Both the position numbers and the translations under genes were made by a program. DNA of 64,000 nt from Tetradesmus obliquus (Eukaryota > Chlorophyta > Chlorophyceae > Sphaeropleales > Scenedesmaceae): assembly GCA_030272155.1 (NCBI GenBank), contig CP126196.1, forward strand, positions 2,728,001-2,792,000, in the 5' to 3' direction. A model generated the notes under the pieces. It was not told where the DNA came from, made no database searches, and saw nothing but the letters and a program-made list of their open reading frames with translations. Shown here one piece after another: positions 1 to 64,000 of this stretch; positions within the stretch are counted from its first letter, which is position 1, and each line of letters starts with the position of its first letter.

Positions 1-3000
1 GCAGCAGCAGCAGCAGCAGCGCCAACGCCCGCAGCCGCAGCAGCAGCTGCTGCAGAGCCGGAGGTGAGCGCTTCGGCTGCTGTGGCTGATGCAGGGGATG
101 ACGACAGCAGCGATGCAGGCGACATTCCAGAGCTGGTGGATGCAGAGAATGAGGCAGACAATGCCATGGAGCTCGGCGACACGCCAGCTGAGGCAGATGA
201 GCAGCCAGCAGCAGCAGCAGCAGTGAAGCAGTCAGCAGCGAGTGCTCAGGCCACCAAGAAGAAGGCAGCAGCAGCAGCAGCAGCAGATCCAAAGCAGCAG
301 CAGCAGCAGCAGCAGGAGAAGGGCAAGAAGCAGGAGCAGCCTGCAGCAGCAGCAGCAGCAGCAGCAGCAGGCCAGGCGCAGCAGCTGGTTGCTGCTGGCG
401 CTGCTGCTGCTCCTGCTGCTGCCAAGGCTGCTGCTGCCGAGGAGGTCGCTGTCGACGCTGCTGCCGCCAAGCCTGCAGAGGCTCCCAAGGCTGCTGCAGA
501 CAAGGCAGACGCTGCTTCTGCCAAGTCAACAGAGGCTCGCAAGCAGGAAGAGGAGCAGCGCAAGGCTGCTGAAGCTGAGGCCAAGGTGGCGGAGGCGAAG
601 CAGCGCAAGGAGGCGGCAGAAGAGGCGGAGCGCAAGGCTGCTGAGGTGAGCCTGGATATTTCCAAATATGTTTACTTTGTAGTCCAAAATATAAGTCACA
701 ATATGTAACAAACAAGGCACATTTCTTCTTTTCTAGGGCGGCTGAACTAGGCAATGTGCTGTGTGCGCACAACACTTGGTGTTTCGCGCAGTGTGGTGTC
801 CTGTGTGGCTGCGAGGTGCAGTGTGGGGTGTGCAGTAGCAGTGAGGGGCTGCCTGAACAGGTGGGGGCTGGCACATGTATGTGTCCAGGCGGCTGATGAG
901 GCTGGCGCAGCAGCAGCTGGTTGGGAGGGGGCTTTTCCAAGCATCAGGCCTAGTGTTCACGTTTTGCAGGATGTGGTGTTGGTTGGGGCTGCAAGATGCA
1001 GTGCGGGGCAGGAGTGTGCGGCAGCGTGGATAGGTGTGTAGCTGGCTCTGTCTGGCCTTCCATTCGTAACAGGAACAGGCCAGTCGTCGAATCCACCCAT
1101 CTATGTGGGCATTACAGCAAAGAACAATGGGGCTGATGCTGCTGCTACAACAAGGGCTTCCTACGCAACAGTAGCATGTCACAAGGCGGTGTTCCTGTGT
1201 CTCAAGTGTTTTGTGCCTTGCTGTGCTGCAGATGATGCAGAAGCTGCTGGCGCTGCAGATGATGAAAACAGATGTTGTTTCAAGCAGTAGCATGTCACTT
1301 TCTGTTTCTCTTTTTCACATGTTGTGAACCTGCTGCTGTGATGTAGATGATGCAGAGGCTGCTGGTAGAGGAGGAGGCGTGGAAAATAGTCTGCTTTGTG
1401 GCGTACCTCTGCGGAAGCAATAGTGTGCCACGTCGCTGTATTTCTCACAAGTTGTAAACCTGCTGCTGTGCTGCAGATGATGCAGAAGCTGCTGGCAGAG
1501 GAAGAGGCAGAAAAGGAGCGGCAGCGGCTGGAGCAGGAGAAGAAGGACAAGAAGAAGAAGAAAAAGGAGAAGCAGAAGGAGAAGAAGAAAGCTTCAGCAG
1601 GAGGGGCCGAGGGCGATCAGGATGCAGACATCGACACAGAAGCAGCAGCAGCAGCAGCAGCAAAGACAGCGGCTGCAGAGGCTAGCAGCAGCGCTGCTGC
1701 AGCTGCAGCTGGGAGCAGCAGCAGTGCGGCTGCAGCTGAGGCCGGCAGCAGCAGCGGGGCAGCAGCACCTGCTGCGCCTGCCGCACCTGCCGCTGCAAAT
1801 GACAAGAAGAGTAAGAAGGCAGCAGCAAAGGAGGCAGCAAGGGCTGAAGCAGCAGCAAAGGCAGAAGCAGCAGCAGCCAAGGCAGAAGCTGCGGCGGCAG
1901 CAGCAGCAGCAAAGGAGAAGGGTAAGGCCCCTGTGTCCAAGGTATCTGCTGCAGAAGCAGCAGCAGAGCTGATTGCGCAGCAGCATCGGCTGCAGGAAGA
2001 GAAGGAGGCGGCAGCAGCAGCAGTGCGCCAGAAGGAGGCAGCAGCAAAGGCAGCAGCAGCAAAGGCTGAGGCTGCAGCAAGGGCAGAAGCAGAGCGACTG
2101 CAGCGGCAGCAGCGCGAGCAAGAGGAGGCAGCAGCAGCAGCGGCAGCAGTAGCAGCAGCAGAGGAGCGGCAGCGCATGGATCTCATGGCAGCAGCGCAGC
2201 AGGCAGCACTTGAGGTGCAGCAGCAGCGGGTCACTTCACCAGCAGCAGCATCCTCATCTGCTGCTGCAGCTGCCGGGCATGCCGGCTCAAGTGCAGCAGC
2301 AGCAGCAGCAGCGCGGCGCTTCCCTCTGCCTGGCATTTACCCCTCTAACACTGTGTATGCGCAGCTGCACATCCCCAATGGCAGTGTGGCTGCTGCTGCT
2401 GTACGCCCCAGCCAGCGTGACTTTGAGCTGGGGAAGGTTGCAGCAATGGAGCGAGCACAGGCCGCGCTGCGGGCAGCGCAAGCAGGTACAGCAGAGCATG
2501 CAGCAGCACTTGCAGCACAGCAGGCAGCAGCATTGGAGGTGCGCAGCGCGCCTGTGCCAGCAGCAGTACCTGGCATGCCGCCTGGCTATGCACCACCAGC
2601 AGCAGCAGTGCCAGCAGCGATGGCGCACCTGCCGCCGCACCTGCAGTATGCGCAGCAGCGGTCAGTGCAGCAGCCAGCTGCGCCTGGTGCAGCAGCGGCA
2701 GCAGCAGTGCCGCAGGGTGGCCTGAGGCCAGCTGTGCAGCTGCCGCCGCACTTGGCACACCTGCCGCAGTTTGCACACCTGCGTGCAGCAGCAGGGCCGC
2801 CAGCAGCAGCAGCAGCAGCGCCAGCGCAGCCGGCTGCGAGCATGCCGCCTGCTCCGCTGCCCTTCCATGCGCCAGTGCCTGTGGCTGCCGCCCCAGCAGC
2901 AGCAGCAGCAGCAGCAGCACCTGGCTTCCCTGCAGGCGCGCCAGATCAGCAGCAGCAGCAGCAGCATGTGACGGCAATCCTGGCAGCGGCAGCAGCCAAG

Positions 3001-3240
3001 GACAAGGCGCTGCAGGAGCAGCAGCAATCGAAGTCAAAGAAGTCAAAGTCAAAGCCAGCTGTTGATGAGCACCATGACAACGAGTGCGTGGTGTGCATGG
3101 AGCGCACGATTGAGGTGATGCTGCTGCCCTGCAAGTGCTTCAAGCTGTGCACGGTGTGCAGCGATGACATCAAGGCCAAGCAGCAGCCCTGCCCGTGGTG
3201 CAGGAGCGTGGTGACCACCCACCTGCGCGTGCGCATGTAA
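1..3240 (+). CDS. Ala-rich coiled-coil protein with C-terminal RING-type finger (5' partial)
   Basis: Two exons are visible, 1-645 (open at the left edge) and 1477-3240, joined in phase at GCTGAG|GTGAGC and GCTGCAG|ATGATG. The N-terminal part is acidic, then Ala-, Gln- and Lys-rich. Charged heptad-like stretches (about 530-645 and 1480-1600) look like coiled coil, and the middle is Ala/Gln/Pro low complexity. The last 55 codons hold a zinc finger: ECVVC near 3088, PCKCFKLCTVC near 3127 and CPWC near 3193. In the RING family this end-of-protein arrangement usually means an E3 ubiquitin ligase. The position normally filled by His in a C3HC4 RING (PCGH) is Cys here. Family assignment is good; a ligase role is inferred. 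Substrates and location cannot be read from the sequence. The intron carries two decayed copies of the second exon's 5' end. Confidence 0.8.
1228..1500 (+). repeat. Tandem 5'-end copies of RING-gene exon 2
   Basis: The acceptor plus exon start (gcagATGATGCAGAAGCTG) occurs near 1229, decayed near 1345 (gtagatgatgcagaggctg) and intact at 1477. The units are roughly 115-130 bp and share intron text such as tgttgtgaacctgctgctgtg before the AG. Only the last copy runs into the full exon. Confidence 0.8.
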
Positions 3241-4871: not shown

Positions 4872-7800
4872 ATGCAGAGCTGCATTGGGCGCACCAGGGG
4901 CGCCCCAAGCCTGGCAAAGCAATCCAAGCCCAGCAGGGCGCAATGCCTTGCTGTAAGGGCCACAGCAGAGCCTCAACAGCCTATTAAGCAGTCTGGACGC
5001 CGTGCCATGCTGGGCATGGCTGGCCTGGCTATTCTAGCTGGCACTGCTGCTGCTCCAGCTCAGGCAGGAGAGCCATTCCTGGCATCCACTGGAGGCAAGG
5101 GCTTCTTGGCAGATGAGGAGCAGAAGCTGCTGAACCTGCGTATTCAGGCGGAGTCCGAGGCCCGCAGGGAGATCCAGGCAGAGCGGGAGAAGCTGGAGGA
5201 GGAGGCCCGGCGCTCACAGGTGGGCATGTCAGGACACTTATGCTTGCAGGAAACCTGCCATGGGACTTCGGCATGATTGCTTGGTAGTATGTACTCTGGC
5301 TCCTTGCAGCTGCGTCGCTTGGGCTGCAGTTGGATGGCAGTGAGAGTTGTGTACGGCAGACACAGCAGCAGTACAGACGTGAGCTCAGCTGCGCCACTGG
5401 CCAGTTGCCCTGGGCTGCCAGCTTGATACCACGCGTGTCGGCTGCACTCATATTGGTTGTGGCGCAGCGAGTTATGCAAGCTGGGCGCTATCAACAGCAG
5501 GCTTGCACTCCACTGTACGGCATCAGCTCTGCTGGTGTGCGTGCAGAGCCTGACTGCCGCAGACTGGCAAGCTGTGCGCCACGCCCGTTTCTCACCTAGG
5601 GCACTCACAACAGCTGATCCATCTGTCGCACAACCACCCCTCAGATCGGCAAGCTGTGCGCCACACCGTATGGCATCGACGTCGTGGGCATCACTGAGTT
5701 CATTGCTCTTGTGGGCGCGCTGATGTTCTGACACAGAGTGGTTGACATGTTGCCGCTTATTGTAATGCTACCGCCTGCCCCCCGCCACAGATCAGCAAGC
5801 TGTGCGCTACGCCTTATGTGATTGACATCGTGGGCATCACCAAGGTCATCGCGCTGGTGGGCTACCTAGCGTTCAAACGGCTCTGTTGACATGGACTCAT
5901 CTTCCTGCCATGCTGCCGCCCGTTTCACCTCATTTCAACCGCAGATTGGCAAGCTGTGCGCTACGCCGTGTGGCATTGACATCGTGGGCATCACCGAGTT
6001 CATTGCGCTGGTGGGCGCGCTGGTGCCCTGCACCGCCCTGACACAGAGTGTTCAACAGGCTGTTCTTTATCGTAATGCTGCCGCACCACAGATCGGCAAG
6101 CTGCGCGCCACACCCTCTCTCTACCCGATACATCCACAAACCTGATCTGTATTTGTCTGCCATCCTCCTTATGCAGATCGGCAAGCTGTGCGCCACCCCC
6201 TATGGCATTGATATTGTGGGCATCACCGAGTTTATCGCGCTGGTGGGCGCGTTGGTGGGCGGCATTACGGCGCGGCAGCGCAAGGCGGAGCTGGAGCGGC
6301 TCAACGAGCAGTTGCGCAAGATCAACATGAGCCTGCGGCAGCAGGCGCGCGCGGGCACAGTGTACGCGCCAGGTAGGTTTTAGGGTGTATTCAAATGGTT
6401 TGTTTTGGGGTGTGAAGAGAGCGGGTGCAAGATTAACGTGCGCCTGCGGCAGCAGGCACGCGCGGGCACAGGGCACGCGCCAGGTGTGTTTCGGCTGCCT
6501 GTTCAGGGGCGTTGTTTGGTTGTGAGTGACCGCATAGCTACAGGATGCGGCACTGTGCGCAGTGGTAGAGGGGGCACCGTGGCACACCAAGTGCGGCAGC
6601 TACTTCTGTCAGGCCCGGCGGTGCGCGCGGTCATTCGGCCTGCTATGCTGTGTTGTGCAGTAGTGGAAGCTGCAGTCTGCTGCATGGTGTGTGTTGCAAG
6701 TCCTACGCGAGTGTGTGAGTATTTATGCTAATCAGTCAAATGCAACCTTTCCTTTGACGTGCAGGTCTGTCATATGCTCCGCCAGTCGGCGGCAACGGCA
6801 ATGGCATGCCATCCAGCAACGGCGCAACAGCAGTAGCGGAGCCTATGGGCATGCAGACCGTAACAGCCACAGTCACTGCGCCGCCGCCGCCAGCAGTCAG
6901 CAGCGCGGCGCCTGCAGCAGCACCCAGCGTAGCACCTGCGCCTGACAAGACGCTGTTCTCAATGGATGAGGAGGAGATGACCAGCGACCAAATACAATGC
7001 AGGTGGGTGCATTACCGTAAACATTATCATGCTGTGTCTGTGTTTCGCCATGTTGCCTAGGCCATAACACAGTCTGCATGCTTGTTGCTCAATGGATCAG
7101 GAGGAGATGACCAGCGACCACATACAGTGCAGGTGTGCATAGATTTTGGCATGGTTCGTGTGCTTCAAGCCGCTGCACATCATACTCAGGGCTGCCGGAT
7201 GTATGCGTGCAGCATCGTTGTTCAGCCAGCAACCTCCTCCTGCATCCTGCTCCCTGGTGAAGCCTGGTGCCTGCTGCTGTTGCTCCTGCTCATGCCGAAT
7301 GCTGTATTTCTGGGACGCGCTCATATGCTCGCGCTGCATGCGGGCAAGTGCTTCCTCAATTGCAACCACAGCACCATCACCCAGCCACCCACATCTCATA
7401 ACATGCCGCCTGCTGCTGCTGCTGCTGCCACTGCCTCCCGCATTCTTGTTATCACCGCCAGGGACGCGCTGCGCGCGGGCAATCAGCACCATTTCAGTTC
7501 TCACTGTCCTCATGCATGCTGTGCCCTTCCCAACAATTACTCATGCTGTGCGCTGCCGCTTGCTGCTGCAATTTCGCGTCCCCAGGGACGCGCTGCGTGC
7601 GGGCAAGCGCTTCCTGAAGGAGGCCAACGGCAGCGCTGCCATGGTGCGCTTCGAGAAGGCGCTCATGCTGTCCATGGCGCTGGACAACAAGGTGGGTGCG
7701 TGAGGCAAAATGGGTTGCGCAGGTCATGTTGCGCCAGTAGACAGCAGTGGGCCAGCAGCTTGTGCTTTGTGAGAAGGCGCTCAAGCTGTCCATGGCGCTG

Positions 7801-9114
7801 GACAACATGGTGGGTCCATGAGGCAGAATCGGTTGCGTAGGTCATATGTTGCGCCAGTAGAAAGCAGTGGGGCAGCAGCTTGTGCTTTGTGAGATGGTGC
7901 TCAAGCTGTCCATGGCGCTGGACAACATGGTGGGCCCCCGCCATCAACTTGATCATTGTCTTCACACAGTTTGTTCATATCATCACATACACGGCAGTGG
8001 GCCGGCAGTTTGCAGTGGGACTGCGCTTTGTGCATTACTAGCTTCGGGTGTAATTCTTGAGCATATGAGCTAATGCAGAGCAGTCAAGCAAAGCAGCAGG
8101 AAGCAGCAGCCATGGTCGCCTTTCATTGGTCCTAGGGCTCGACTGTTTCTTGTTGTGTGTGTGCTGTATATTGTGCTGCAGGTCCAGGAGCGCCGCGCCA
8201 CGCGCGGGCTGGCTGCTGCTGCGCGGCTGCAGGGCCAGTACCGCAACGCCATCAAGCACCTGGAGCGCGTGCTGGAGATCAGCCAGCAGATGCGCGAGTA
8301 CACAGGTGGGTGTACTACATAACTACATGTTGGGAGCCACCTACTACATCTGTTTGGGCTCATTCGGTGACATGCTGCTGCGCTTCACCAGTTCAGTTCG
8401 ATACACAGCTGTACAGTGGCTGATAGCGGTGTTGCATGCACGCCATGCCATCAATGTAAGGTATGGGTTGGTTGATAACATGTTGTTGACACAGCTGTAG
8501 CATTCGGCTGTGCGCGCGATGCATCCGCTGCAGGCGACGCTGACGCGTACGGCACCCTTGCCAACAGCTCTGGTTTGGTCACATGTTTCTGGCCCTTTGC
8601 TGATCACAGGCTGATCACATTCGACCTACTGTGTGTGCTGCTGCCGTGCAGGTGACGCTGATGCGTATGGCACCATTGCAGACTGCTACACCGACCTGGA
8701 TGAGTTTGAGAAGGCGGCAGCATACTACGACAAGTACATCCAGGTGGGGCCCAGTGTTGCCGCACAGCATGGATACAACCCTGCATCACAAAGCAGGCTA
8801 GATGCTGGTGATAGATACAAAGTGCACACGTCTGGCAGTGTTAAAACACAGGTATAGACGAAATAAAAGCAGGTGCAAGCACGTGATTTGTCACCCGGCA
8901 GCTGCTGTAGTGCACTAGGGTGCAAGCTGAAAGCGAGCAGTGCAGCACCACAGGTGCCAGTGCTCGGGGACCAAGATGTTGTTCTGTGTGCCGAGTTTGA
9001 GGCTGTGTTCTGTTGCATGCTGATCGAACGGCTTAGGCTTTTTCCATCCTCAACTGCTGCCACGCTGCGCTGCTTGTCCTGCTGCAGTGCATGGCCAAGG
9101 ATGGACCTGTCTGA
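4872..9114 (+). CDS. FLU: FLU-like chloroplast TPR protein, negative regulator of tetrapyrrole synthesis
   Basis: Seven exons: 4872-5219, 6177-6372, 6765-7002, 7586-7691, 8182-8305, 8652-8743, 9088-9114 (376 aa; phases agree). The N-terminus looks like a plastid transit peptide, followed by RRAMLGMAGLAILAG, a hydrophobic segment. A coiled coil follows (about aa 85-116), then the conserved hydrophobic stretch DIVGITEFIALVGALVGG with a second charged helix. After a Pro/Ala-rich linker come TPR units (YRNAIKHLERVLEISQQM; ADAYGTIADCYTDLDEFEKA). This order matches plant FLU and Chlamydomonas FLP, membrane-bound plastid proteins that restrain glutamyl-tRNA reductase. The start is the first ATG with the transit-like sequence. 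The tiny last exon (CMAKDGPV) is the least certain. The gene is packed with partial exon copies. Confidence 0.85.
5563..6260 (+). repeat. Six tandem 5'-end copies of FLU exon 2
   Basis: Copies of cag|ATCGGCAAGCTGTGC begin at 5563, 5645, 5791, 5945, 6092 and 6177; the last is the full exon. Three (5645, 5791, 5945) extend through the GITEFIALVGAL region, while 5563 and 6092 are short. Spacings are 82, 146, 154, 147 and 85 bp. The 5791 and 5945 copies carry substitutions. Confidence 0.9.
6318..6484 (+). repeat. 3'-end copy of FLU exon 2
   Basis: The exon end at 6318-6372 (gcaagatcaacatgagcctg ... gcgccag|gtagg) recurs at 6425-6485 (gcaagattaacgtgcgcctg ... gcgccag|gtgtg), downstream of the true donor. 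Confidence 0.85.
6957..7135 (+). repeat. 3'-end copy of FLU exon 3
   Basis: ctcaatggatgaggaggaga ... atgcag|gtgggtgcat (ending 7002) recurs as ctcaatggatcaggaggaga ... gtgcag|gtgtgcat, ending near 7133, downstream of the true donor. Confidence 0.85.
7311..7929 (+). repeat. 5'-end and 3'-end copies around FLU exon 4
   Basis: Exon 4 (7586-7691) is preceded by copies of its start, gggacgcgctgcgcgcgggc, near 7461 and a decayed one near 7311. It is followed by two copies of its end (aaggcgct..gctgtccatggcgctggacaacatg|gtggg), ending at 7809 and 7929. The downstream donors are spaced 118 and 120 bp. Confidence 0.85.
8534..8690 (+). repeat. 5'-end copy of FLU exon 6
   Basis: cag|gcgacgctgacgcgtacggcacc at about 8534 duplicates the true exon start at 8652 (cag|gtgacgctgatgcgtatggcacc), 118 bp upstream. 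Confidence 0.85.
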
Positions 9115-10374: not shown

Positions 10375-12989
10375 ATGCAGAACGACGAAATCATCTGGCA
10401 GGTCATCAACCACCACCACTGCAGCTTCAAGTCGAAGACCAAGACGCAGAACTTCTGCAGGAACGAGCACAACGTCACAGGGCTGTGCAACCGCTCCTCC
10501 TGCCCGCTTGCCAACAGCAGATATGCCACCATTAAGGAAGAGGACGGCCGCTGCTACCTCTACATGAAGACAGTAGAGCGAGCACACACACCCAAGAACA
10601 TGTGGCAGAAAATTCGGCTCAAGCGCAACTATGCGCAGGCACTAGAGCAGCTAGATGAGCACCTGGCCTACTGGCCAAAGTTCTTGGTGCACAAGAACAA
10701 GCAGCGGCTGACCAAGATCACGCAGTACCTCATCCGCATGCGCAAGCTGGCACTCAAGTCGACGCCCAAGCTGGTGCCGATTGCAGCAAGGTGCGGTGCA
10801 GAAGGGAGCTGTTATGTTGCGGCTGCAAGGCGGCGTAGGGTTCAGCAGTGCATGGTGCCAACATGCTGCTGCTGCTCATGCATGGCAGAGTAGCTGCGGC
10901 AGCATTTCTTGTCAGGGCACAGATGTGGCTGTAGAGCAGCAAGGGGAAGAAGGGTAACACAAGTACATGCAGCAGCAGGCAGGCAGGCGCAGCAGCTGTA
11001 GCAGTGTGTGTCAGGAGCTGTGTGGGTGCGCATGGCCTGGGGTGCTGTGCAAGTTGCCAGCAGTAGTTGCCCGCTCCAGCAGCCTGCACGCATGCACAGC
11101 GGGGTCACGGAGCAGTTCTGCTGTCTGCTGACGCTGCAGTTGCATGCATCAGCCAAGGACCGCGCTATCACAGCTTGCTGACGTGTTTTCATAACCAACC
11201 AACGCTGCAAGACTGAGAAGCGCGAGCGCCGCCACAAGACCAAGACGCAGGTGGTGGCGTGTAATAGTCGTGCCCTTTGTCCTTTTGCTCACATTTCGCT
11301 GCGCTGTTCACTTCACATTTGACGCTGCAGGACTGAGAAGCGTGAGCGCCGCCGCGAGGCTAAGGCGCAGGTCGCGCTCACATCAACACGTTGCAGTTCT
11401 GTGTGCTGACATTTTGCTGTTCTGTGCGCCGCAGGACTGAGAAGCGTGAGCGCCGCCGCGAGGCCAAGGCTCAGGTTGCTGCGCGGCTGGACCAGGCCAT
11501 TGAGGCGGAGCTGCTCAAGCGGCTGCAGAGCGGCACCTACGGAGACATCTACAACTTCCCGCTCAAGACCTACGAGAAGGTGAGGACTGGCTAGCTGGAT
11601 AGCTAGAGCTAAGAGTGTGTGTTTGAAGCGTGCTTTGGGCCAAGCAGCTGTTGCAGCAACGTAGGGTCTTTCAGCAGCTGCTGATGTGTGCCAGGGGAAC
11701 CCTGCATTTATGTGTAATCGGTGGCTAGCTGTGGCCCTCAGACGATGTGATGCAGAACAACCACATCCTGCACTGCCTAGGCTTGCTTCACATGTAACTT
11801 ACATGCATCTGCACTGGTTCTGCTGCTGCTGCTGCATCAGGTGCTTGACCGCGAGGAGGTTGAGGACGATGAGCTGGATGCAGATGCTGATGCTGCCGAG
11901 GATGATGACATGGAGGCCTTCATTGAGGGGGATGAGGAGGAGGACGAGGAGGAAGAGGAGGTGAGGCGGTGTGGCTTGAATGTATTGACATTGTGTTTAT
12001 CAGTCGCATTGTCAGGTGACAACGGCTAGTAGTTGGCCAGGGTACCCAAGAGGTATGCATGCATTCTGGTAGCAGCATGTGTGTGTGGTCTTTGTCCTGT
12101 TCGTGCCACCTTTTCCAGCATGCGCCGCGTGCTTGTTGCGGCCCGTGGTCAAGAGGGTGGCAGATCACGCAAGTGCTGGCGGCCACGCTGCCTCGTGCGG
12201 GGCAGCAGATGGCCTTTGTGGCTGCTGCTGCTTGCCGCCAGCACCGCACATCTGCAGTCACGCTTTTCGTGTCAACTGCTGTCTTTCTGTTGTTTCTGTC
12301 AGTCAGTCACTGTCCTTTCAGCGGAACTCAGATTCAGGATGTTGCCTTTTCCCCGTTTTATCTTGCACATGCAGCAACCCACCTCGCAACCTTCTGCTTA
12401 ACAGGCCGCACTACCGCTGCGTTGCTGCTGTCACTGTCACATTCTACAGGTGGAGAATGCGGATGAGGATGACGTGCGCTGTCTCAACCCCACTGCTCAC
12501 AAGCTAGCTGCTGATGCTGTGTTTTTTTGCCGTCCCTGCTGCACATTGTGCTCTGGTGCCCTTCAGGTGGAGTATGTGGATGAGGATGACGTGCCGCTGT
12601 CAGAAGATGACATGGAGGACATCGCAGAGGAAGGAGAGTACAGCGGCGATGATGATGATGGCAGTGAAGGAGACAGCGAAGAAGATGATGAGCCCATGTC
12701 AGGCAGCGAAGGCGAGGAGCCAGGCAGCAGCAGCGGCGACGAGGACGAAGCAGCAGCAGCAGCTGGCAGCGATGACAGCGGCAACGAAGATGAAGACGTG
12801 GAAGGAGCAGCAGCAGCAGCCGGCGGCAGGCGGAGAGGCGGGCAGCAGCAGCAGCGGCCGGCGCGGCAGAAGCCGGGCAAGCAGCAGCCGCAGCAGAAGC
12901 TTGCGCGGCAGCGGCGCGGCAGGGGCGGGCAGCAGCTGGAGATTGAGTATGAGGAGGAGCAGGCGGCTCCTGTTGCACAGCGGCATTAG
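10375..12989 (+). CDS. MAK16: MAK16, 60S ribosome biogenesis factor
   Basis: Four exons: 10375-10790, 11435-11579, 11841-11960, 12567-12989 (367 aa). The N-terminus [19 protein letters not shown], the [20 protein letters not shown] cysteine cluster and [19 protein letters not shown] are hallmarks of MAK16, a nucleolar protein of early pre-60S particles. Exon 2 gives the basic [13 protein letters not shown] helix and the [17 protein letters not shown] block. The C-terminal half is the expected acidic Asp/Glu tail, here extended with Ala/Gln/Arg-rich low complexity ending in QRH. The start ATG lies in a good context (gccATGC). Introns 1 and 3 hold tandem exon-start copies. Confidence 0.93.
11211..11480 (+). 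repeat. Three tandem 5'-end copies of MAK16 exon 2
   Basis: ggactgagaagcgtgagcgc and its immediate 3' sequence occur at 11211, 11331 and 11435. Each of the first two runs to a GCGCAG|GT- or ACGCAG|GT-type junction that could serve as a donor. Only the third is the full exon. Confidence 0.88.
12451..12600 (+). repeat. 5'-end copy of MAK16 exon 4
   Basis: acag|gtggagaatgcggatgagga at about 12451 duplicates ttcag|gtggagtatgtggatgagga at 12567, 116 bp upstream of the complete exon. Confidence 0.85.
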
Positions 12990-13124
12990 GGTGGTCAGGA
13001 TTGCAGATGTTGAGGTTGAAGTGCAGCTGCTGGTGGTGCTGGTGCGGCTGGTGATGAAGTTGCTGGTGTCAGGGTGCGGCAGGTGTCAGCTGCAGTAGTA
13101 GCATCTGCTGATTGGATGAAGCCC

Positions 13125-17122: not shown

Positions 17123-17184
17123 AAATCCCTGACCTAGGCGGCCATCTCCTGGCAGGCAGCGGACAATGGCTGCCGCCTTTGCTC

Positions 17185-21000: not shown

Positions 21001-21753
21001 CCTTCAGCTGAGGCACTGCCCTGTAATTGCTGCTTTTTCAATGCATCAGCTGCACGTGGCTGCGAAGCATCAAGAGCCAATTGACTCTGATACCATCAGC
21101 GCAGTAGATGAGCAGCAACTGACCTTTGCCCTTCAGCGGAGGCACTGCCCTGTACTGGACCAGCAGCCTGCTCAACAGCAGGCGACTGTCTGCCAGCAGA
21201 GCCCCCAACTTTACATTCAGCGCGTCTGCCTTGCCCGCAAGTGCCAGCTGCTGGACAGTGATCAGCTGTAGCCGCAGCTCATGCAGGACTGCAGCCTGGC
21301 TGACAAGCGCGTCTTTGTGCTCATGTGCCAGCGCAAACCTGCAGGAACGGCAGTGGCGGCAGGTAGCAGTGGTGGCGTAGCAGTGGGTGAAATGAAGTAA
21401 AGTGAGTTAGTAACTAATGCACTGTAATCAAGACTGCTGCATCACCTCTAAGGCATTGGTGTTCATTGTTGCCAGATGAACACAGCTGATGCTGCACGCT
21501 TGCAATGGCTACAACTTGGCTGCATGCATGCGCGGACGCACGGAGGCTCACACGAACGCATGCACGCATGCACGCACGTCCGCACAGCATGGATGTAATC
21601 AGTGCGAAAGTCACAACCGCCTTAAGGGTGCCACCAGTGGCAGCTGGTAGCATGTGACATGGAGTGCCCCGCACCTCACGAGCGGCCCTTTCTTGTTAAA
21701 AACCACACACTGTGCAGCAGCCTCTGAGACAAGCTGCAGCCAGCGCTGCAATC

Positions 21754-46200: not shown

Positions 46201-47934
46201 CTGCTGCTGTAGGCCACAGCTGTGAGCACGAGCTGGAGGTGGCGCGCATCAACGGCGTGCTGGGCAACATCGACGCCAACACAGGTGGGTGGAGCACTTG
46301 CTTTTTGTCAACTGATGAAGTGCTGCCCAGCACCTGCAGCAGTACAACGGGCATGTGGTCCGATGCACGCCAGCCACAACTGCAACAGCTCCTTGATGCA
46401 CGCACATAATCCGCTGTCTGCATCCGCCCTGCTTTACTTGCTCTTAGTACATTGAAACGCACGCGTGCGCCTTTGCCAACAGGTGACGCCCAGACTGGTT
46501 GGCACACTGACCAGTTCCTGACCGACCTCTTGATGGATGAATTCACATAATTCTGATGTTTCTTGCAATCATGTGCAACAAGTGACGCGCAGACTGGCTG
46601 GGACACTGACCAATCCCTGACCTCTTGATGGATGTGAATTCTCAACACTCTGATGCATCTTGCAATCATGTGCAACAGGTGACGCGCAGACTGGCTGGGA
46701 CACTGACCAGTTCCTGACCGACCCGCGCATGGCCACGCTGGTGATGGCGGTGGTGGTCAAGAACAACGGCCTGGGCAGCGGCGGCATCAACTTCGACGCA
46801 AAGATCAGGTGCGTTGCACTTTGGCAGCTTGCGCGCCTGCGATGTTGAGCCTTTCTTGTCTATTTTTTATTGTATTTTATTGACAAAGGGGTTTGAAAAC
46901 CCGCAGGTGTGCGTGGCAAGTGTCTGGCATGTGCATGCATGGCATCAGCAGATGCCACTTGAAACACCACCAACTGTGTTGCTTGCCTGCAGGCGTGAGA
47001 GCATCAGCACGGAGGACCTTTTCTACGGCCACATCTCAGGCATGGATGCCCTCGCGCGCGGCCTGCGCAACGCAGCAGCACTCAAGGTGGGGCGGCACGG
47101 CTGCGCCACTGCTGCTGCTGCTGCTGCTGCTGCTGCTACTACTACTGCATTGTACGAGCTGGTGGTGTTTTTGCGTAAAATCTGTTCCTTACCGCCTTCT
47201 TATGGCTGTTGCTGCTCGTACGCCATGCTTGAAGCCATGAACTCAACGCTTCACTGCTGCTGCTGCTGCTGCTGCCGTTGCTGCCTGCATCTGCTGCTGC
47301 AGGAGGCTGGGCAGCTTGACGGCCTAATCGCTGACAGATATGCCAGCTGGAAGGCCAAGGGCGGCCTGGGGCAGAAGATCATCAACGGCAAGGTGAGGCC
47401 TGATGCAGCTGCATTGAGTGTAAGCCAGCTGCGATGTTCATTTGCCACCACTTCTGCTGCTGCAATCCTCTGTGCAATTGCTGCCTTGTCTGCAAGCAAC
47501 ATTGCATGCGCGCGCCATATTATAAGCGCCACATTGTCTGCATGTGGCATGTTAATGCACGTAGTGCACCTGCGCCTGCCGCAGGTTGGCTCTGCCAAGC
47601 TCGAGAAGTGCGTGCTGTCCAACTCTGATTGGCTCCTGCATCTCACACAACCATCTGTTCTTAGAGAAGCTGCGCATGTTGTTTACCTGCATTTGCCGCA
47701 GGTGGGCTTTGCTGAGCTGGAGAAGTATGCGCTGTCAAACCCCGACCCCGATAATCCCATGGCCAGCGTACATGCAACCCCCTGTCCTTTTAAACACGTT
47801 ATTTTGTGTGCCTGCGGCAGGTGGGCTTTGCTGAGCTGGAGAAGTATGCGCTGTCCAACCCCGACCCTGGGTCATCCATGGCCAGCGCAAAGCAGGAGCT
47901 GGCGGAGATCTACCTGGACATGGCCACCAAGTAG
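40227..47934 (+). CDS. Xylose isomerase (XylA family), plant-like, with N-terminal leader
   Basis: Thirteen exons: 40227-40265, 40465-40691, 41361-41447, 41992-42100, 42470-42546, 43562-43722, 44349-44511, 45467-45660, 46213-46284, 46679-46808, 46993-47086, 47303-47392, 47821-47934 (518 aa). [13 protein letters not shown] suggests a secretory or ER leader, as in plant homologues; the acceptor of exon 2 is the least sure junction. Family blocks are [42 protein letters not shown] (catalytic His), [43 protein letters not shown] and [15 protein letters not shown] with metal ligands. The enzyme interconverts D-xylose and D-xylulose. More than half the exons have tandem partial copies, so most of this 7.7-kb gene is copy-filled intron. 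Confidence 0.95.
41080..41430 (+). repeat. Three 5'-end copies of XI exon 3
   Basis: The exon start tgcag|gtatgagggccccaacag occurs decayed near 41090 (gtaggatggccccaacag), well preserved at 41228 with the following 60 bp, and complete at 41361. The intron tail tctgctgctgtctgccatgt is repeated with it. Confidence 0.88.
42070..42235 (+). repeat. 3'-end copy of XI exon 4
   Basis: tgggacaaggagaaggaccc gctgcag|gtgcg at 42074-42105 recurs at 42204-42235, downstream of the true donor. Confidence 0.88.
42792..43630 (+). repeat. Seven tandem 5'-end copies of XI exon 6
   Basis: Copies encoding [20 protein letters not shown] begin at 42792, 42913, 43037, 43170, 43319, 43444 and 43562; only the last continues into the full exon. 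Spacings are 121, 124, 133, 149, 125 and 118 bp. Copy 3 has lost one base. Flanks of copies 1 and 6, and of 2 and 5, are nearly identical, so the array grew partly by duplication of multi-unit blocks. In every partial copy the exon text stops at gctgag|gtg, where the coding gtggcg of the true exon reads as a possible donor. Confidence 0.95.
44156..44400 (+). repeat. Three 5'-end copies of XI exon 7
   Basis: caggccgcaacgcggcc with tacgctgctgcgcaagtg near 44157, a decayed copy near 44250-44290 (cgtgtttgtgtgcgccgctgc) and the true exon start at 44349. Confidence 0.8.
44443..44965 (+). repeat. Four 3'-end copies of XI exon 7
   Basis: The segment encoding [20 protein letters not shown] ends the true exon at 44511. 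It recurs near 44595-44660 (well preserved), 44732-44800 (with an in-frame stop) and 44897-44965 (strongly decayed), all downstream. This gives an age gradient along the array. Confidence 0.9.
45170..45540 (+). repeat. Three 5'-end copies of XI exon 8
   Basis: The exon start cttcatgaagatggccaatg (FMKMAND) with the following 60-70 bp is found at about 45168, 45309 (altered, with an insertion of about 9 bp) and complete at 45467. Confidence 0.9.
45608..46115 (+). repeat. Five 3'-end copies of XI exon 8
   Basis: aacatcgagtgcaaccacgc cacgctggcag ([11 protein letters not shown]) ends the exon at 45660. It recurs ending near 45779, 45893 and 46017, plus a decayed copy near 46111 (gactgtaacaatgccacgat). 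Each of the first three is followed by GTGATC, GTGCGT or GTGCGG. Confidence 0.92.
46480..46725 (+). repeat. Three 5'-end copies of XI exon 10
   Basis: acaggtgacgcccagactgg, acaagtgacgcgcagactgg and the true acaggtgacgcgcagactgg lie at about 46480, 46578 and 46676. Each is followed by ttggcacactgaccagttcc or a variant. Intron text tgatggatgaattcac is repeated as well. Confidence 0.92.
47584..47890 (+). repeat. Three 5'-end copies of XI exon 13
   Basis: cag|gtgggctttgctgagctgga ([14 protein letters not shown]) is seen diverged at 47586, well preserved at 47701 and complete at 47821. Spacings are 115 and 120 bp. Confidence 0.9.
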
Positions 47935-50929: not shown

Positions 50930-52698
50930 TCAATCGCTGCCGCCGCCCTCCGCTGCTGCTGCTGCGCCGCCGGCGCCGCCGCCCATGTATTTGGGCCGCT
51001 TGCCCCCTCCCTGTTCGCTCTGGTAGCCCACGATGCACAGGAACTCCTCCGCAGTCATCAACTCGCCTGTGCGATTGTTGGGCCGCGGGAAGTCTGCAAG
51101 TGGGGCACAAGCAACACCAGCACACACGCAGTGGTCACAATCAAGCGCGGATGCACAGGAACTCCTCCGCAGTCATCAGCTCGCCTGTCCGGTTGTTGGC
51201 CGCGGAAAGTCTGCAAGAGGGGCACAAGCAACACCAGCGCACACGCAGTGATCACAATCAAGCGCGGATGCACAGGAACTCCTCCGCAGTCATCAACTCG
51301 CCTGTGCGGTTGTTGGGGCGCGGGAAGTGTGCGGATCACAGCAACAGAGGTTTAAGTTGCGCCGGTACAACATCACTGAGTGAGCAAAGCAGACCGCCTG
51401 TGTGTTGCTCGCAGTTCCTCTGGTGGTGCTGGGAAGCAAGTGAGCCGCCTGGCATGATGCCAGCGTCGCTGCAGCAGCCGTTTCCAAAAACTCACGAGGG
51501 AAGGCCGCCGCCTCAAACATGCCTAATTGCGCACAATACCAAGATCCGCACACCTGCAGCTTGCCGGCCAGCAGTAGCTGGCTGGAAGAGAATGCACCAG
51601 TCCATTCGACACCAAGCCAGCACTCACCGACCATGCGCAGCATCCATCACATGATACGAGCTGACGCATTTGGTCAAGCTTACGACACTTTCAAACCTGC
51701 ACTAGCGGCTGTCCGTCCTAGCCGGCAGCTGGTGCTGAAGGTGCTGGTACCATGTCAGTAACACTCACCGACCATGCGCACGTGGCGGCGCCACTTCTTG
51801 ATTCGCTCCTCGCCCGCGTAGCGCAGGAAGTCGGCCACGCCCTTCAGCACCTCCTGGCCATGCTGGCTGAAACTAACCACGCAGCGCCCGCCCTGCAAGT
51901 GCAGAAAGCAGGTTTGAAATTTAAGTATCGCAGGTGGGTCCTGAACTCATGGCAGACAGCGTGAGCCGCAGGCCAATGGAGAGGTGCGTATCTGGCTACG
52001 GCTGCGTTCATGCACAGCGTAATACGCGTCGATTGGGTACTTGGCGTGACAGCCGTCAGCAAGCACTGCTCAGCAACAGCCCCCCTCACCTGCACGCTCA
52101 TCACACCCGCTACGCCGTTGCACACCACGCGCGCGCACCGCGTGCGCTCCCAGTGCTCCGCACACATTGCATGCAGCTCCTGAGGGAACCGGCTGACCCT
52201 GTACTGCACTGACTTGATGCAGTTGAGCCGTGGGTCGCTGCGCTTGCGCTTCAGATCACAGCCGCCAGCGGCAGCAGCAGCGGCAGCGGCGGCGGCTGCA
52301 CTGCCAGCAACAGCAGCGCCAGCGGCAGCGCTGGCATACCAATCAGCTGGTGCTGCGTAGCCACCAGCAGCAGCAGCCACTGCTGCTGCTGCATCTGGTG
52401 CGCCGTAGCCTGCTGTGATGCCGCCGTATCCTGCTGCCATAGCAGCAGCAGCTGCTGCCGCTGCTGCATCATGGCTGTAGCCGCCATAGCCTGCCACAAT
52501 GGCTCCAGGCAGCAGCTGCTGCTGGTGCTGCTGCTGCTGCTGCATGGCTGCTGCAGCCCAGGCTGCATTTGCATCCTGCAGCTGTGGGCGCGGCAGCAAG
52601 CTACTGCCTTGTAGCATGCCTTGATACTGCTGCGTGTGGGGAGCTGCATACTCCAGCAGCGGATCACTACCAGCAGCGTACTGGCCCTGCAACCCACC

Positions 52699-52733
<35 letters not shown>

Positions 52734-53167: not shown

Positions 53168-53214
<47 letters not shown>

Positions 53215-55643: not shown

Positions 55644-58600
55644 TCACCGCCGCCGGCTGCCCTCCGCATCTGCTGCTGCAGCCCGCCGCTCGCTGTCAGC
55701 GTCCTGCTGCGCTGTGGCCAGCATGCACAGCGCTGACATGCGCGGCACCAGCTCCTCATACAGCGTCCACACCAGCGCTGTCTGCAGCGTGCGCTTGAGG
55801 ATGCGCGGCGCAGCACCTGCAGCGCAGCGCGGCGGCCAGAAGCCAGGCAGGAAACAAAGCATCACATGTGTGTCAGTATGATGTAGCATTGCATGAGTGT
55901 GGTGCAGTGCTGATGCAGAGCTGTCTGCAGCATGCGCTTGAGGATGCGCGGCGCAGCACCTGCAGCGCAGCGCGGCCGCCAGGGGCCAGGAGGAAGAACA
56001 ACAGGGTCGGCTGTTTGTCAGCATGGTGCAGGTTGCATGTCTGTGTTGAGTGGTGATGCACAGAATGACGTCAAGCCGCTGTACGTCGTCCAATCTGAGA
56101 CGCTGCGAGCGAGGTGCATTGACTGCTGGATGTTGTGTGGGTCACTAGCTGGCCAAGCCACTGCAGCTGCTCAGCCAGCCACCGCCACTCGTCTACACAT
56201 TGACACCTCTGCGCCTGCAGCACCACACAGTTCTACCATTGAGTACGACCAGCTTCTGCAGTGCCAACATCGTTGGCGACACGTGCATGCCCCTTCTATC
56301 CCACAGCCCACCGCCCACCGCCCACCTGCCAGCAGCGCATTACAACCGCTGCTGCGCAGCACGTGCCCCAGTGTAGCCTGCGCATTGCCTAAACTATGTA
56401 GCTCATAGGCTAGAACAGCCACTGTCCATGCTGCATCTTCCACTTCAAGACCGCAAGCTCTCTGCTGTTCCAAGAGCAATGCAGCGCTGACCTTGCCTGA
56501 CTACTGCAGTGCCAACGTCACTGGAAACACATTGCTCCACCCACATACTGCGCATTGACCCAGAACCCCCCCGACTACCCACCTGCCAGCAGTGCATTGG
56601 GCCCGCTGCTGCACGTGTCCCAGCGTAGCCAGCGCATTGCCTTTTGCCACCCCCCGGATGCCCAGCTGCAACTTCTCACATGGAATTACGCAAACGCAAA
56701 CACCGATCAGCTGTACCAGCAGCGACGCAACCGGAGCTTCTAGTACTACCAGCTGCTATAGCGCCAACATCGTTGGCAGCCTGTGACCCACCTGCCAGCA
56801 GCGCGTTGGGCCCGCTGCTGCGCAGCACGTGCCCCAGCGTAGCCAGCGCATTGCCTTTCGCCACCCCCGGGATGCCCAGCTGCATGCGCGTGCGCACCAC
56901 GTCGCTCGGCTGCGTCAGCAGCGTGGCCGCCGTCGCAGCACACACGCCACTGACAAAGTTCACAGCAGTCGTCGGCAGGCTGCCGCCGGCCTGCGAGCCA
57001 CCGATCGCGCCTTTCAGCTGCGTGTATAGCATGTAGTACAGCGCCGAAAACGGTGCATTGGTCAGGACAGTTGGCCACAGGCCTCGGAAGAGTCCGCGGG
57101 GGCCTTCTGTGGATGCGATTGTGGCCAGCGCGTGTGCGGTGTTCTTGTAGGTGATGTGGTTGGGCCCTCCGTACTCCATGCGGGTTTTTACGAGCGTGAC
57201 GGGGGACATCACCGCCGCAGACATTGCACGAGCCATGCCTGGTGATGATGGTGATGATGGAGAGGACAGGTGAGCAGTGGATGCAGCAGCAGGGGCAGGG
57301 CGGAATCAGTGAGGCAAGAGCATAATATCACGGCAGCAGACATTGCGCGAGCCATGCCTGGCGCGCCAGATGGTTGTGACACGCTACAATATGCGGCAGC
57401 AGGGCCGGGCTGACGCCAGCCAGGCATGCTGCTTGCTGGTAACCCAGCTGCCGCGACACATGCAGCAGCACCTCCAGCATGATGTGCTTCAGCCGCTGAA
57501 GCCTGTTACACATACACACAGCTCACTCCCTTCTCTCCCGCCCAAACCACTGCGCACCTGCCACTGATGCAGCCTGCACCTCTAGCATCATTCAGCCCAC
57601 TCACGCCTTAAACACAACCACACAGGCACAGGCACACCCGACAGCCCCACTACTGCTCACCTCCTTCTGCCGCTGCCTGCAGGTATCCCAGCTGCTCGGA
57701 TGCATGCGGCAGCACCTCCAGCATGATGTGCTTCAGCCACTCAAGCCTGATACATGCACAATTACAACAGTCCCCCTTCCCCGCACAATTGCAATGCACC
57801 TCCCACTGCCGCAGCCTGCAGGTATCCCAGCTGCCCCCGGCGCATGCGGCAGCATGTCAGACCGCTCACCCTTTCATTTATTTTTACAGGTGAAACCCAT
57901 GGCCCCTCGTCTGCTCACCTCCCACTGCCGCTGCTTGAAGGTATCCTAGCTGCCCCGAAGCATGCGGCAGCACCTCCAACATGATGTGCTTCATCCGCTC
58001 AAGCCTGTTACATACTCCCTCTCCTGCCACGACAATTGCGCACGTCCCACTGCCGCAGCCTGCAGGTATCCCAACTGCCCCGAAGCATGCGGCAGCACCT
58101 CCAGCATGATGTACTTCAGCCACTCAAGCCTTATATACATTACAACCGCCACGCACCTGGGCCCAACCACTGCTCACCTCCCACTGCCGCAGCTTGCAAG
58201 TAGCCCAGCTGCCCCGAAGCATGCGGCAGCACCTCCAGCATGATGTGCTTCAGCCACTCACGCCTGATACATGCACAATTTCAACAGTCCCCCTTCCCCG
58301 CACAATCGCAGCTCACCTCCCACTGCTGCAGCCAGCAGGTTTCCCAGCTGGCCCCAGCGCATGCGGCAGCACGTCAGACCGCACAAGCCTTTCATTCATC
58401 TTGACAGGTGAAACCCATGGCCCCTCGTCTGCTCACCTCCCACTGCCGCTGCCTGCAAATATCCGAGCTGCCCGGAAGCATGCGGCAGCACCTCCAGCAT
58501 GATGTGCTTCAGCCGCTCCAGAGCCACAAAGTTGATGCCAGCACCAATCGACAGCCGCACCACAGTGGGGCCTGTGCCGCGCCACAAGCCCCGCACGCCA

Positions 58601-58991: not shown

Positions 58992-59043
<52 letters not shown>

Positions 59044-61184: not shown

Positions 61185-62964
61185 TGCAGGGCATCGACGC
61201 CTTCACGCTGCTGCAGTACGGCCTGCCTGGCTACTTCCAAGACCTGCTGCTGGCTGCATTCGGTGCCTGGGACACCACCCTGTGGGCTGTCGCCCTCACA
61301 GCAGCAGCACTGCCAGTCACAGCATGGGCTGTGCGCTGCTGGTGGGCCGCAAGCATGCAGCTGCTAGGCGGCGAGGGCGGTGCTGTGCAGCAAATGCAGC
61401 AGATGATTGAGCAGCAGGATCAGCAAGCCAGCAGCAGCAGCAGCAGCAGCAGCAACAGCGGTGGTAGCGCTTGGGTGGCTGGCGTGGTGGGTATTGCCAG
61501 GGCGTTGTTGATTAGCTCGGCAGTAGGCAGCTTCAGCAGCGCGCTTAGCAGCAGCAGCAGCAGCGTTGTGACAGCAGTTGTAGCGGCATTGTCCGGTGTT
61601 GTAGCAGCGGCTACTGCTGCTGCGCCAGTTGCGCTGCAGCTGGTGCATCGGAGCAGCAGCAAGCGCTCGCCAAACAATCAGGCTATAGCTGTGCAATTGC
61701 TGGCATTGGAAGCAGCTTGGACAGCAGCCATGGTTGGTGTGGCTCCCCTGCTTAACTTTGCAGCAGCAGCAGGCATTGCAGCAACGCTGCTCAGCTTGCA
61801 CAAGCAGGTGGTAGCTCCTCGGCTGCTGCAGTACCAGGCAGTAGCAGGGGACCGCTTCCAGGCCCACATCTCCCTGAAACTATCAGGATCTGCTGTTGCA
61901 TTTGACACTACGATCAGTGCGGAGCCAGTCTCCCTCGTGGCAGCGCAGCGCAGCAGCGAGCATGCTCAGAACTGGAAGCAGCTCGGGTCTGATGACTTCT
62001 GGGAAAAGCTTGCAGCTCAGCAGGACGCTGACGCACCACCAGCAGCAGCAGCAGGGGAGGCTGGTGCGGCCACACCAACAGCAGCAGCAGCAGCAGCAGC
62101 AACAGCGCAGCTGCGCAGCATTGCTCAAGGTGTGAAGGGCTGGCTGGGCACTCCTGCTGCTCGGTGGGAGCCGCTGCTGCCGTTTGTGGCTGACGCTGCT
62201 TGCGGCATGTTTGTGGGCGAGACGCGCAGCGTGCAGCTGCTGAACCCTAAGGCAGGCGGCTACTGGAACCCTAGCTTCAGCTGGTGGCAGCCCACTGCGG
62301 ATGTGATGGCAAAGTTCAGGGGTCAGGTGAGATGAGGGCCAAATGGGGTGTGGCAGCTGGATTGCGTGGAGCATGCAGCGCGTGGAAAGCATGCTGAGTA
62401 TTGATATAAGTGTGCGGAGTGCTGGCCAAGCTCAAGTCAGAGGTTGGGCAAGCCGCATAAAGGAAGGCCAGCTGGCTGGTGTTGGTGACTCTGCCAGGAC
62501 AGTAACATGTAGCATGACGCGAATGAAAGACCGTTGCCAGCAGTTTGCGTGGCTGTCATGTTGTTGCGTGTGCACGGCGTTGAGTCACATCGGCACAGCT
62601 GACTCTTGCTGTTCCCCGATCATGCCCCGAACCCTGTCCTGCTGTTCTGCGCTGCCCATCTGCTGCAGATGCCCGCCCCGGGTGACGTGTTCCTGCACCC
62701 CGTGGGTGAGGGCGCCTACGTGCCCTTTGTCGCTTCTGGGCTTGCATCTCTCACATGCACTACCTGCACGCCTGCTGCACTGCACATGTGCCGCAGATGC
62801 CCGCCCCGGGTGACGTGTTCCTGTACCCCGTGTCCGAGGGCGCCTACGTGCCCACGCGCGTGGCTGCCATTGGCGAGAAGTATGTCGAGCTGGATGCTAA
62901 CTATGGCGTGACTGGCGCAGCGCTGCAGCTGGAGGTGACCCTAGTGGCACTGCAGAAGCAATAG
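60281..62964 (+). CDS. Membrane protein with C-terminal FKBP/SlyD-like peptidyl-prolyl isomerase domain
   Basis: Four exons: 60281-60388, 60618-60887, 61190-62326, 62797-62964 (560 aa; phases agree). The Ser/Arg/Pro-rich N-terminus could be a plastid leader. Hydrophobic segments (DTTLWAVALTAAALPVTAWA; VVTAVVAALSGVVAAATAAA; GVAPLLNFAAAAGIAATLL) suggest several membrane spans. The C-terminal part resembles an FKBP domain: FDTTISAEPVSL, LPFVADAACGMFVGETRSVQ (compare LPG-EEALLGMKVGEKR in SlyD types) and VPTRVAAIGEKYVELDANYG then LEVTLVALQK. Isomerase or chaperone activity is inferred, and key active-site aromatics are not all evident. Copies of the last exon's start lie in intron 3, and copies of its end fill the 3' UTR. 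Confidence 0.65.
62667..62850 (+). repeat. 5'-end copy of FKBP-like exon 4
   Basis: gcag|atgcccgccccgggtgacgt gttcctg..cccgtg occurs at about 62669 and, complete, at 62797. Spacing is 128 bp. Confidence 0.92.
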
Positions 62965-63455
62965 CGGAAGCAGAGGCCAGCAATGCTGCGCTGCGCTGCC
63001 ATAGTTTGAAGTACCTGGCACTGGCACACGCAAGGTGACTGGCGCAGCACTGGAGCTGGAAGTGACGCTGGTGGCGCTGCAGAAGCAATAGCCGTAGAAG
63101 AGGCCAGCACAGGTGTGGAGTGCAAGGCAAGGCTGTGGAGTACCTTGCACTGGCGCACGCAAGCTGATATGTGCAGCGCTGCAGCTGAAGGTGACCCTCC
63201 TGGCGTTGCACAAGCAGTAGTGACGAGTCAGGCGTTCTGCGCTGCCGCAGTGTGGAGTGCCTGGTGCACACGCCAGGGGACATGTGCAGCGCAGCAGCTG
63301 GAGGTGTGACGCTGGTGGCGCTGCAGAAGCATTAGTCAAGAGTGTAGCGAGTGATGCTGTGCAGTGCTCCCAAAGTGTAGAGTGCCTGATACATGCAGGG
63401 TGACTGGCGCAGCGCTGCAGCTGGAGGTTACTCTGGTGACGCTGCAGATGTAGAG
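62905..63455 (+). repeat. Five tandem copies of the FKBP-like C-terminal coding end, four in the 3' UTR
   Basis: The last codons plus stop (gtgactggcgcagcgctgca gctggaggtgacc ... ctgcagaagcaatag) at 62908-62964 recur ending near 63091, 63220, 63335 and 63454, at about 115-130 bp spacing. Each keeps an in-frame TAG at the same place. Confidence 0.93.
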
Positions 63456-64000
63456 GTGTGTGAGTGCAGATGTAGTTTTTATATCGCTACTAGTAATTGT
63501 GCAGCAGGCGCTGCAGCAGCAACCTCCGCAGGCGCTGCAGCAGTACCACCTGCGCTTGCATGCATCTGGTGAACTGGTTTCAGCCTGTCTTTCGTGTGTA
63601 GTGCTGCCCATCTGAGCTGCCAGTGCATGGCTTCGAGTGACCGTCACTCTTGCGGATAGTTCTGGGTGTTCACTGATGGATTGATGGATTATTCTGATCC
63701 ATCCCCACTGTTTGTTCACTCGTTGGTATCATCATCATGTTACCCATCAAGCCATAGCATCAACACTCACTCGTTGGTATGTACGGTGTAACAGTGGTGC
63801 TGCTAGGGTGTTGGTTTGCTCATCCGCATGCGCAAGGTCGGCGCACAGCAGCAGCATGGCTACTGAACTGTGCTGCGTCCAGTGACAAGCGCAGGCGGAA
63901 GTGACAGACAGACGGCACCAATGTGACTCAATGGCTGGCAGCCGCTACCTGGTAGCCGCTAGCTGGCAGCTGTACCAGCACAACTGTAAAAGGACGAAGT
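62965..64000. other. 3' region of the FKBP-like gene
   Basis: After the C-terminal copies no further gene was recognised. It contains the second 37-bp dispersed repeat and a 51-bp direct repeat. Confidence 0.45.
63717..63780 (+). repeat. Dispersed 37-bp repeat, copy 2, inside a 13-bp direct repeat
   Basis: The 37-bp word at 63728-63764 is identical to 49647-49683. cactcgttggtat flanks it at 63717-63729 and 63768-63780, 51 bp apart. Confidence 0.9.

Follow-up and report, generated by a model that had tools for sequence, protein, structure and literature searches.

Tandem duplicates of exon borders in Tetradesmus obliquus introns: a similarity step at the splice site and possible exchange between exon ends and their copies

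Why do introns of the green alga Tetradesmus obliquus carry, beside the real splice site, repeated copies of the end of their own neighbouring exon, and what keeps those copies so like it? The question arises from a 64-kb stretch of contig CP126196.1 (positions 2,728,001 to 2,792,000; hereafter the window), part of the one genome, 104.66 Mb in 17 contigs, from which all results below come. The feature is an extreme variant of tandem duplication at gene borders, genome-wide as judged from a random sample: short tandem duplications across exon/intron borders and, once, across the border between coding sequence (CDS) and untranslated region (UTR), an event previously known from single cases. What is unusual here is the scale, the way similarity stops at the splice site, the preservation of the exon part, the scarcity of amino-acid changes in two verified genes, and the mosaic look of some copies.

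BLAST comparison of the window with itself gave 79 self-matches, 73 of them near (72 direct, one inverted) and six far. Clustering of the near matches under a low-complexity filter gave 29 arrays that cover 18% of the bases; the shuffled control, order-2 Markov sequence, yielded none in 264 kb. Since the filter loses at least two clear arrays (6316-6517 and 29063-29373), the resulting 31 arrays are a lower bound, and the estimate of at least 25 in the initial annotation holds. Its claim of pervasiveness was right; it gave 11 of 13 genes as affected, and about ten of the 13 genes into which 16 predicted window models were merged carry arrays. Its description of local, direct, partial-exon copies on both strands is borne out, as are the extremes it gave, from near-identical (29070/29185) to barely recognisable (44897), and its remark that these are not transposons, nothing within the window being transposon-like. 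Introns hold the copies as it stated; of the 3' UTRs it also named, there is one array (62908-63448). Microsatellites and CAG runs, which the filter removes, were rejected as an explanation, as were inverted structures, with their single near inverted match, and in-frame periodicity, the spacings modulo 3 numbering 22, 20 and 24 for remainders 0, 1 and 2.

The random sample consisted of 20 stretches of 10 kb, the first 20 fetched of 200 drawn, with places drawn up to about the highest kinase match on each contig and contig 17 left out. It contains 37 arrays, at least one in 17 of the 20 stretches, at a mean density of 1.85 per 10 kb; the window, at 4.5, has about 2.4 times the sample mean and is not exceptional in kind. 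Over the 66 filtered arrays of window and sample, the minimum spacing has a median of 130 bp (quartiles 117 and 160). Among the window arrays whose copies were counted, the highest number is seven, exon included, at the acceptors of 30422-30980 (by reading) and in 42783-43632. The copies are direct, head-to-tail and regularly spaced, as in a short tandem duplication or minisatellite-like array. One random stretch (L017, 3-1556) holds a long array with a spacing of 186 in sequence without a predicted gene.

Exon borders were drawn from two sources. Two genes, here called verified, were mapped exactly from published proteins by the placement with the fewest introns: alanine aminotransferase (26973-31765), whose 487-residue query matches T. 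obliquus OEZ86_003901 at 100% along its full length, and xylose isomerase (39823-47931), whose query of 338 residues matches T. obliquus OEZ86_003904 at 100%. They have nine and 15 exons, respectively, with GT-AG introns, exons 7-8 of xylose isomerase lying at 42470-43722; splice sites are weak at the first small exons of the latter gene, and a copy with silent changes only could substitute for an exon and leave the protein unchanged. The remaining genes come from a gene finder trained on the window and the 20 random stretches (58 genes; consensus donor CAG/GTGAG, acceptor TGCAG/G). In the two verified genes this program called seven copies exons (those at 29070, 29185, 29849, 31256, 42913, 43037 and 43444), so counts over predicted genes mix some copy-copy with exon-copy pairs; in practice, intronic copies mislead gene prediction.

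A predicted splice boundary is covered by 26 of the 29 window arrays (null 15.5 ± 2.6, p <= 0.0005) and by 23 of the 37 random-sample arrays (null 16.8 ± 2.7, p 0.022), an enrichment that is real but weaker than it appears, because predicted boundaries are dense. Seventeen of the 66 arrays lie off boundaries (seven intron-only, eight intergenic or UTR, two exon-only), the wholly exonic ones numbering only two although exons make up 27% of the sequence. When each exon was compared with its adjacent intron at a score of 50, matches were found at 54 of 426 boundaries (26/146 in the window, 28/280 in the random stretches), against 5/852 in antisense or other genes' introns and 9/388 in non-adjacent introns of the same gene; in the verified genes, at a score of 44, copies occur in the adjacent intron at 15 of 44 splice boundaries, with 0/44 in antisense. 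At the former score acceptors (29/211) and donors (25/215) are affected alike, which argues against a tie to one splicing step. Acceptor-side copies lie upstream in the intron and comprise an intron end in TGCAG plus mostly 30-100 nt of exon start; donor-side copies lie downstream and comprise a similar length of exon end plus the donor, and the working copy is the member joined to the rest of the exon. Copying does not depend on a splice site, as the 62908 array shows: there a predicted CDS end, stop codon included, is repeated downstream. In five two-copy tandems the length of the match equals the period, with junction overlaps of 8, 5, 4, -1 and 53 bp, the last belonging to a poorly phased tandem of 72% identity. 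One of the random stretches (L008, 9368-9805) has a two-copy tandem of 215 bp that is 99% identical, spans predicted exon borders, has an 8-bp junction overlap and probably arose very recently. The outermost copy stops 4-8 nt past the splice site in several multi-copy arrays (7653, 29063, 51032, 46477). The arrays of the window are as follows.

1169..1508 (+): array at predicted acceptor 1477, spacing 116-130
5557..6257 (+): copies of a predicted exon start in a TPR gene; five rows aligned, the first degraded
6316..6517 (+): exon end and donor, two copies
6954..7140 (+): exon end and donor, two copies
7653..7937 (+): exon end and donor, three copies; homology stops 5-8 nt beyond the last donor
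11202..11479 (+): acceptor copies, MAK16 gene
12444..12601 (+): acceptor copy, MAK16 gene
20933..21154 (-): copy of exon end and donor, NB-ARC/LRR gene; flank similarity still 0.74 (z 6.9)
28283..28546 (+): alanine aminotransferase, copies of acceptor 28506
28626..28854 (+): alanine aminotransferase, copy of donor 28691 (1 N, 4 S; non-synonymous and synonymous changes)
29063..29373 (+): alanine aminotransferase, acceptor 29300, three copies, 98% identical
29705..29954 (+): alanine aminotransferase, copy of donor 29795 (0 N, 5 S)
30422..30980 (+): alanine aminotransferase, acceptor 30950, seven acceptors counting the exon
31245..31599 (+): alanine aminotransferase, acceptor 31522, three copies; copy 2 has the exon's exon part and a flank like that of copy 1
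38136..38348 (-): donor copy, chalcone-isomerase-like gene
41006..41421 (+): xylose isomerase, copies of acceptor 41361 (scored copy 7 N, 2 S)
42068..42247 (+): xylose isomerase, copy of donor 42100
42783..43632 (+): xylose isomerase, acceptor 43562, exon plus six intronic copies (8 N, 49 S over the six)
43687..43915 (+): xylose isomerase, copy of donor 43722
44444..44998 (+): xylose isomerase, donor 44511, three copies, the last degraded
45162..45541 (+): xylose isomerase, acceptor 45467, two copies
45581..46021 (+): xylose isomerase, donor 45660, three copies
46477..46723 (+): xylose isomerase, acceptor 46679, two copies, AG lost in one
47694..47887 (+): xylose isomerase, copy of acceptor 47821 (stop and frameshifts)
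51032..51332 (-): predicted acceptor 51093, two copies
55773..56063 (-): SLC25-type carrier, predicted acceptor 55816; whole-unit tandem copy, 5-bp overlap
56321..56884 (-): SLC25-type carrier, predicted donor 56792, two copies
57208..57361 (-): SLC25-type carrier, copy of predicted acceptor 57238
57428..58521 (-): SLC25-type carrier, longest array of the window (spacings 120-140 and larger)
62647..62853 (+): copy of predicted acceptor 62797
62908..63448 (+): predicted CDS end and stop codon, four copies extending into the 3' side

The resemblance between exon and copy ends abruptly. Similarity is about 0.95 at the splice site and drops to near background within about 10 nt for donors and 20 nt for acceptors, in a profile that uses corrected minus-strand ends. 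For the verified genes, positions up to 5 nt from the splice site match at 0.93-0.99. Going into the intron, the donor side gives 0.38 at +5 to +9 and 0.18-0.36 beyond; the acceptor side gives 0.96 for the last 5 nt, 0.57 and 0.53 over the following ten and 0.23-0.44 thereafter, the shared splice consensus contributing in part to this acceptor-side match. All predicted genes together give a similar profile. Neutral decay does not reproduce the step: in simulations on random sequence with two indel rates only, decay beside a constrained exon leaves an intron match of 0.78-0.81 at +10 for an exon match of 0.89, and an intron match under 0.6 requires an exon match no higher than 0.72; when ages vary and the same detection threshold is applied, the settings tried yield exon values of 0.71-0.89 and intron values of 0.55-0.81.

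The exon parts of the copies also carry few amino-acid changes in the verified genes, where 28 copies differ from the exon by 43 N and 99 S changes (30% N; bootstrap over 15 boundaries 0.19-0.49), against an expectation of 59% N for a dead copy and an exon changing only silently, with the substitution pattern taken from intronic flanks. Leaving out the six-copy array at 43562, the counts are 35 N to 50 S (41% N; bootstrap 0.27-0.52); by gene, they are 3 N to 19 S in alanine aminotransferase and 40 N to 80 S in xylose isomerase.

In three arrays the exon part and the spacer of a copy seem to have different histories. Within the 42783 array of xylose isomerase, copies 42792 and 43444 differ at one of 42 aligned spacer positions (12 gaps) and at eight of 64 exon positions, and copies 43037 and 43444 differ at three of 63 exon positions and at seven of 39 in the spacer (18 gaps). 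In an array of random stretch L012, where the minus-strand site is one base off, the exon-proximal copy shares its spacer with three far copies (0.95), and its exon part matches the exon at 0.93 versus 0.82-0.84 for the far copies. The middle copy of 31245-31599 has no substitutions against the exon, with three indels, and a flank in common with the outer copy. The copy closest to the exon resembles it more than the remaining copies do on average in 12 of 15 arrays, less in two and equally in one (sign test p 0.013).

The explanation that we favour, and to which we would give an even chance of being right, is tandem duplication followed by recurrent unequal exchange between the exon end and its intronic copies. 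That the arrays originate by short tandem duplication is, as we judge it, near certain; the exchange itself, its direction, and exchange rather than function as the cause of preservation are what we infer. Short tandem duplications of about 75-250 bp would arise in the gene-rich part of the genome; those inside exons would mostly be eliminated by selection, and those straddling an exon/intron or CDS/UTR border would be tolerated, since they leave the working exon whole and place the spare copy in noncoding sequence. The array might then act like a minisatellite with one coding member, in which unequal crossing-over, slippage or gene conversion among exon part and intronic copies recurs wherever similarity persists: an expansion would shift the current exon end into the intron, and a contraction or conversion would turn a copy into the exon end or rewrite a copy from it. 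Copies that would harm the exon on their return would be lost, so that those remaining keep frame and splice site better than dead DNA, and the intron-side flank would be free to diverge. Taken together, the similarity step, differences rich in silent changes and the apparent mosaics suggest such continuing exchange. A stronger form, 'revolving exon ends', in which the coding exon end and its intronic spares take turns at a large share of borders, is a tentative suggestion that we hold to be doubtful; were it true, sequence counted as intron would be under part-time protein selection, and splicing would have thousands of reserve borders to ignore.

Several observations weigh against this explanation. 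Over all predicted genes there are 177 N to 205 S changes (46% N, 177/382), which is closer to neutral, and all 99 matched copies of predicted genes give 244 N to 276 S; the lower deficit may reflect dilution by mislabelled exons or frames, or the two verified genes may be unusual. Some arrays look simply dead, such as the one at 41361, and among the 28 verified-gene copies five have a frameshift and two a stop. The mosaics come from three arrays, in small counts and picked by eye. One would expect exchange to preserve flank similarity as well, and the account given above of why only the exon part escapes decay is an argument. The number of clean junctions is too small for a repair pathway to be named.

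The simplest rival has the same origin in tandem duplication and nothing more: neutral duplicates at exon borders decay independently, and the pattern is a by-product of detecting them through a constrained exon. Repeats confined to introns do exist (33 of 366 flanks matched, 18 of those without an exon match), intronic copy pairs are often alike in their flanks (z > 4 in 30 of 44, many from two arrays, against 30 of 78 exon-copy pairs; some minus-strand ends are one base off here, an offset that leaves the N:S counts unaffected), and the N share over all predicted genes agrees with it. Simulations with a similar detection rule nevertheless fall far short of the step, and N:S is too low in the verified genes, so that we judge this reading unlikely. 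Somewhat less likely still is that the copied stretch itself ended at the splice site, through repair or RNA-templated copying of exon ends with unrelated filler between. It would account for the 27 of the 37 best-preserved exon-copy pairs in which ungapped homology reaches no further than 15 nt into the intron (several pairs from the same array, some minus-strand ends one base off), and for the outermost copies that end just past the site. Clear flank homology, however, is present at 20 of 53 boundaries (p < 0.01; 23 at p < 0.05), and the 30 boundaries above p 0.05 still skew to low p (Kolmogorov-Smirnov p 0.004); this residue indicates that in many arrays the intron flank was once inside the repeat. 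Donors and acceptors are, moreover, equally frequent, and the border of the CDS-end array lacks a splice site.

The copies might instead be functional, as mutually exclusive exon ends or as decoy sites that slow or regulate splicing. Besides the N deficit of the verified genes, this would fit the splice dinucleotide being kept in 26 of 27 verified copies and the splice scores of the copies, which are near real ones and equal or stronger in 29 of 69. In the 42783-43632 array the six upstream acceptors score 6.2-10.4 versus 8.5 for the real site, two of them higher, and every copy has AG/GT at its inner end, but the internal acceptor of the exon scores only -3.4. Inner ends of the listed copies have no regular GT or AG (by eye, some minus-strand ends one base off), dinucleotide retention in predicted genes (69/78) is about the level of neighbouring exon bases, and partner splice sites around copies are neither enriched nor depleted. 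Given their frameshifts and stops, the copies as a class are not translated now, and the published proteins contain each part once, though a silent-only copy would give the same protein. Neither general mutually exclusive exons nor a splice-decoy function is supported, and we regard this reading as improbable overall; direct function in single arrays, above all 42783-43632, is possible. Three related ideas were examined. AGGT mini-exons as a general rule were rejected on the irregular inner ends and the very weak internal acceptor at 43562; pseudo-exon avoidance was rejected because there is no difference from random intron windows; and the idea that all copies are coding, raised by one pair with only silent differences, was dropped on the N:S counts of all matched copies and partly regains support from the N deficit of the verified genes. 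More improbable again is a duplication that joined two long-diverged haplotypes, the copy being a recent working exon end of the other lineage. It would, we infer, yield synonymous-rich differences, kept splice sites and unrelated flanks together, but the 43562 array would then call for about five haplotypes with many silent differences among them, and many arrays have residual flank homology. An assembly artefact is conceivable only for near-identical arrays (29063, L008 9368) and hardly credible as a general account, because exon parts diverge by as much as about 20% between copies, many of which have spacers of their own.

How do these arrays, and the exchange that we favour for them, compare with known systems? 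Minisatellites are head-to-tail units that evolve by unequal crossing-over or gene conversion (concerted evolution); the T. obliquus arrays resemble them in unit arrangement, shared spacers and some apparently mosaic copies, and differ in including a working exon end, which is under selection, and in keeping mainly the exon part alike. Mutually exclusive tandem exons likewise comprise exon-like tandem copies with good outer splice sites, whereas the T. obliquus copies are partial and have no regular second splice site, so that two usable sites per copy were not found, the 43562 array being arguable. The AGGT model of intron gain does not fit, since the copies lie inside introns and have no regular inner GT or AG. 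That no named feature class applies, as the initial annotation had it, was too strong, because tandem genomic duplication across intron-exon structure is known: in the potato RdRp gene an intron-exon border is duplicated, a short tandem duplication within a gene with splice signals included, according to passages of the report and of a review (PMC4974935; review PMC3443670). In T. obliquus the copies lie inside introns, and at 10% (random) to 34% (verified genes) of borders. Vertebrate repair-mediated duplications are local duplicates that can contain exon/intron pieces, with four 'partial exon/intron' entries among 824 donor sequences in Pace et al. 2009 (PMC2671141); here the exon border is the rule, and arrays reach seven copies. 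Introners, found primarily in fast-evolving lineages such as green algae according to a passage of PMC9860276, share the gain of sequence in introns, whereas T. obliquus copies resemble their own neighbouring exon and, in the window, only six of the 79 self-matches are far. No description of the feature was found in an open-licence library, among the matches listed, and the main text of a paper on Sphaeropleales genomes (PMC12571836) has no words beginning intron, exon or tandem.

If the random sample is representative, T. obliquus has thousands of natural introns with one to six duplicate borders beside the real one; extrapolated from a sample of 0.2% of the genome, the density of 1.85 per 10 kb would amount to about 19,000 arrays (roughly 12,000-27,000). 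Such arrays would allow tests of what, beyond the site and its exon-side sequence, marks a real border for the spliceosome. A route by tandem duplication has been proposed for changes in introns and exons, and the arrays represent many of its natural stages; they may also be a case in which unequal exchange exposes intronic DNA to purifying selection.

Three further features of the window lie apart from these questions. The gene at 18327-22820 (-) encodes an NB-ARC domain (E 2.6e-5) and leucine-rich repeats (LRR; E 1.2e-16), the layout of plant immune receptors, here in a green alga. The regions 1-3240 and 51844-54766 are very rich in CAG/GCT, with predicted proteins that have long runs of Q, S and A, and at 58992-59043 GCTG is repeated 13 times without error.

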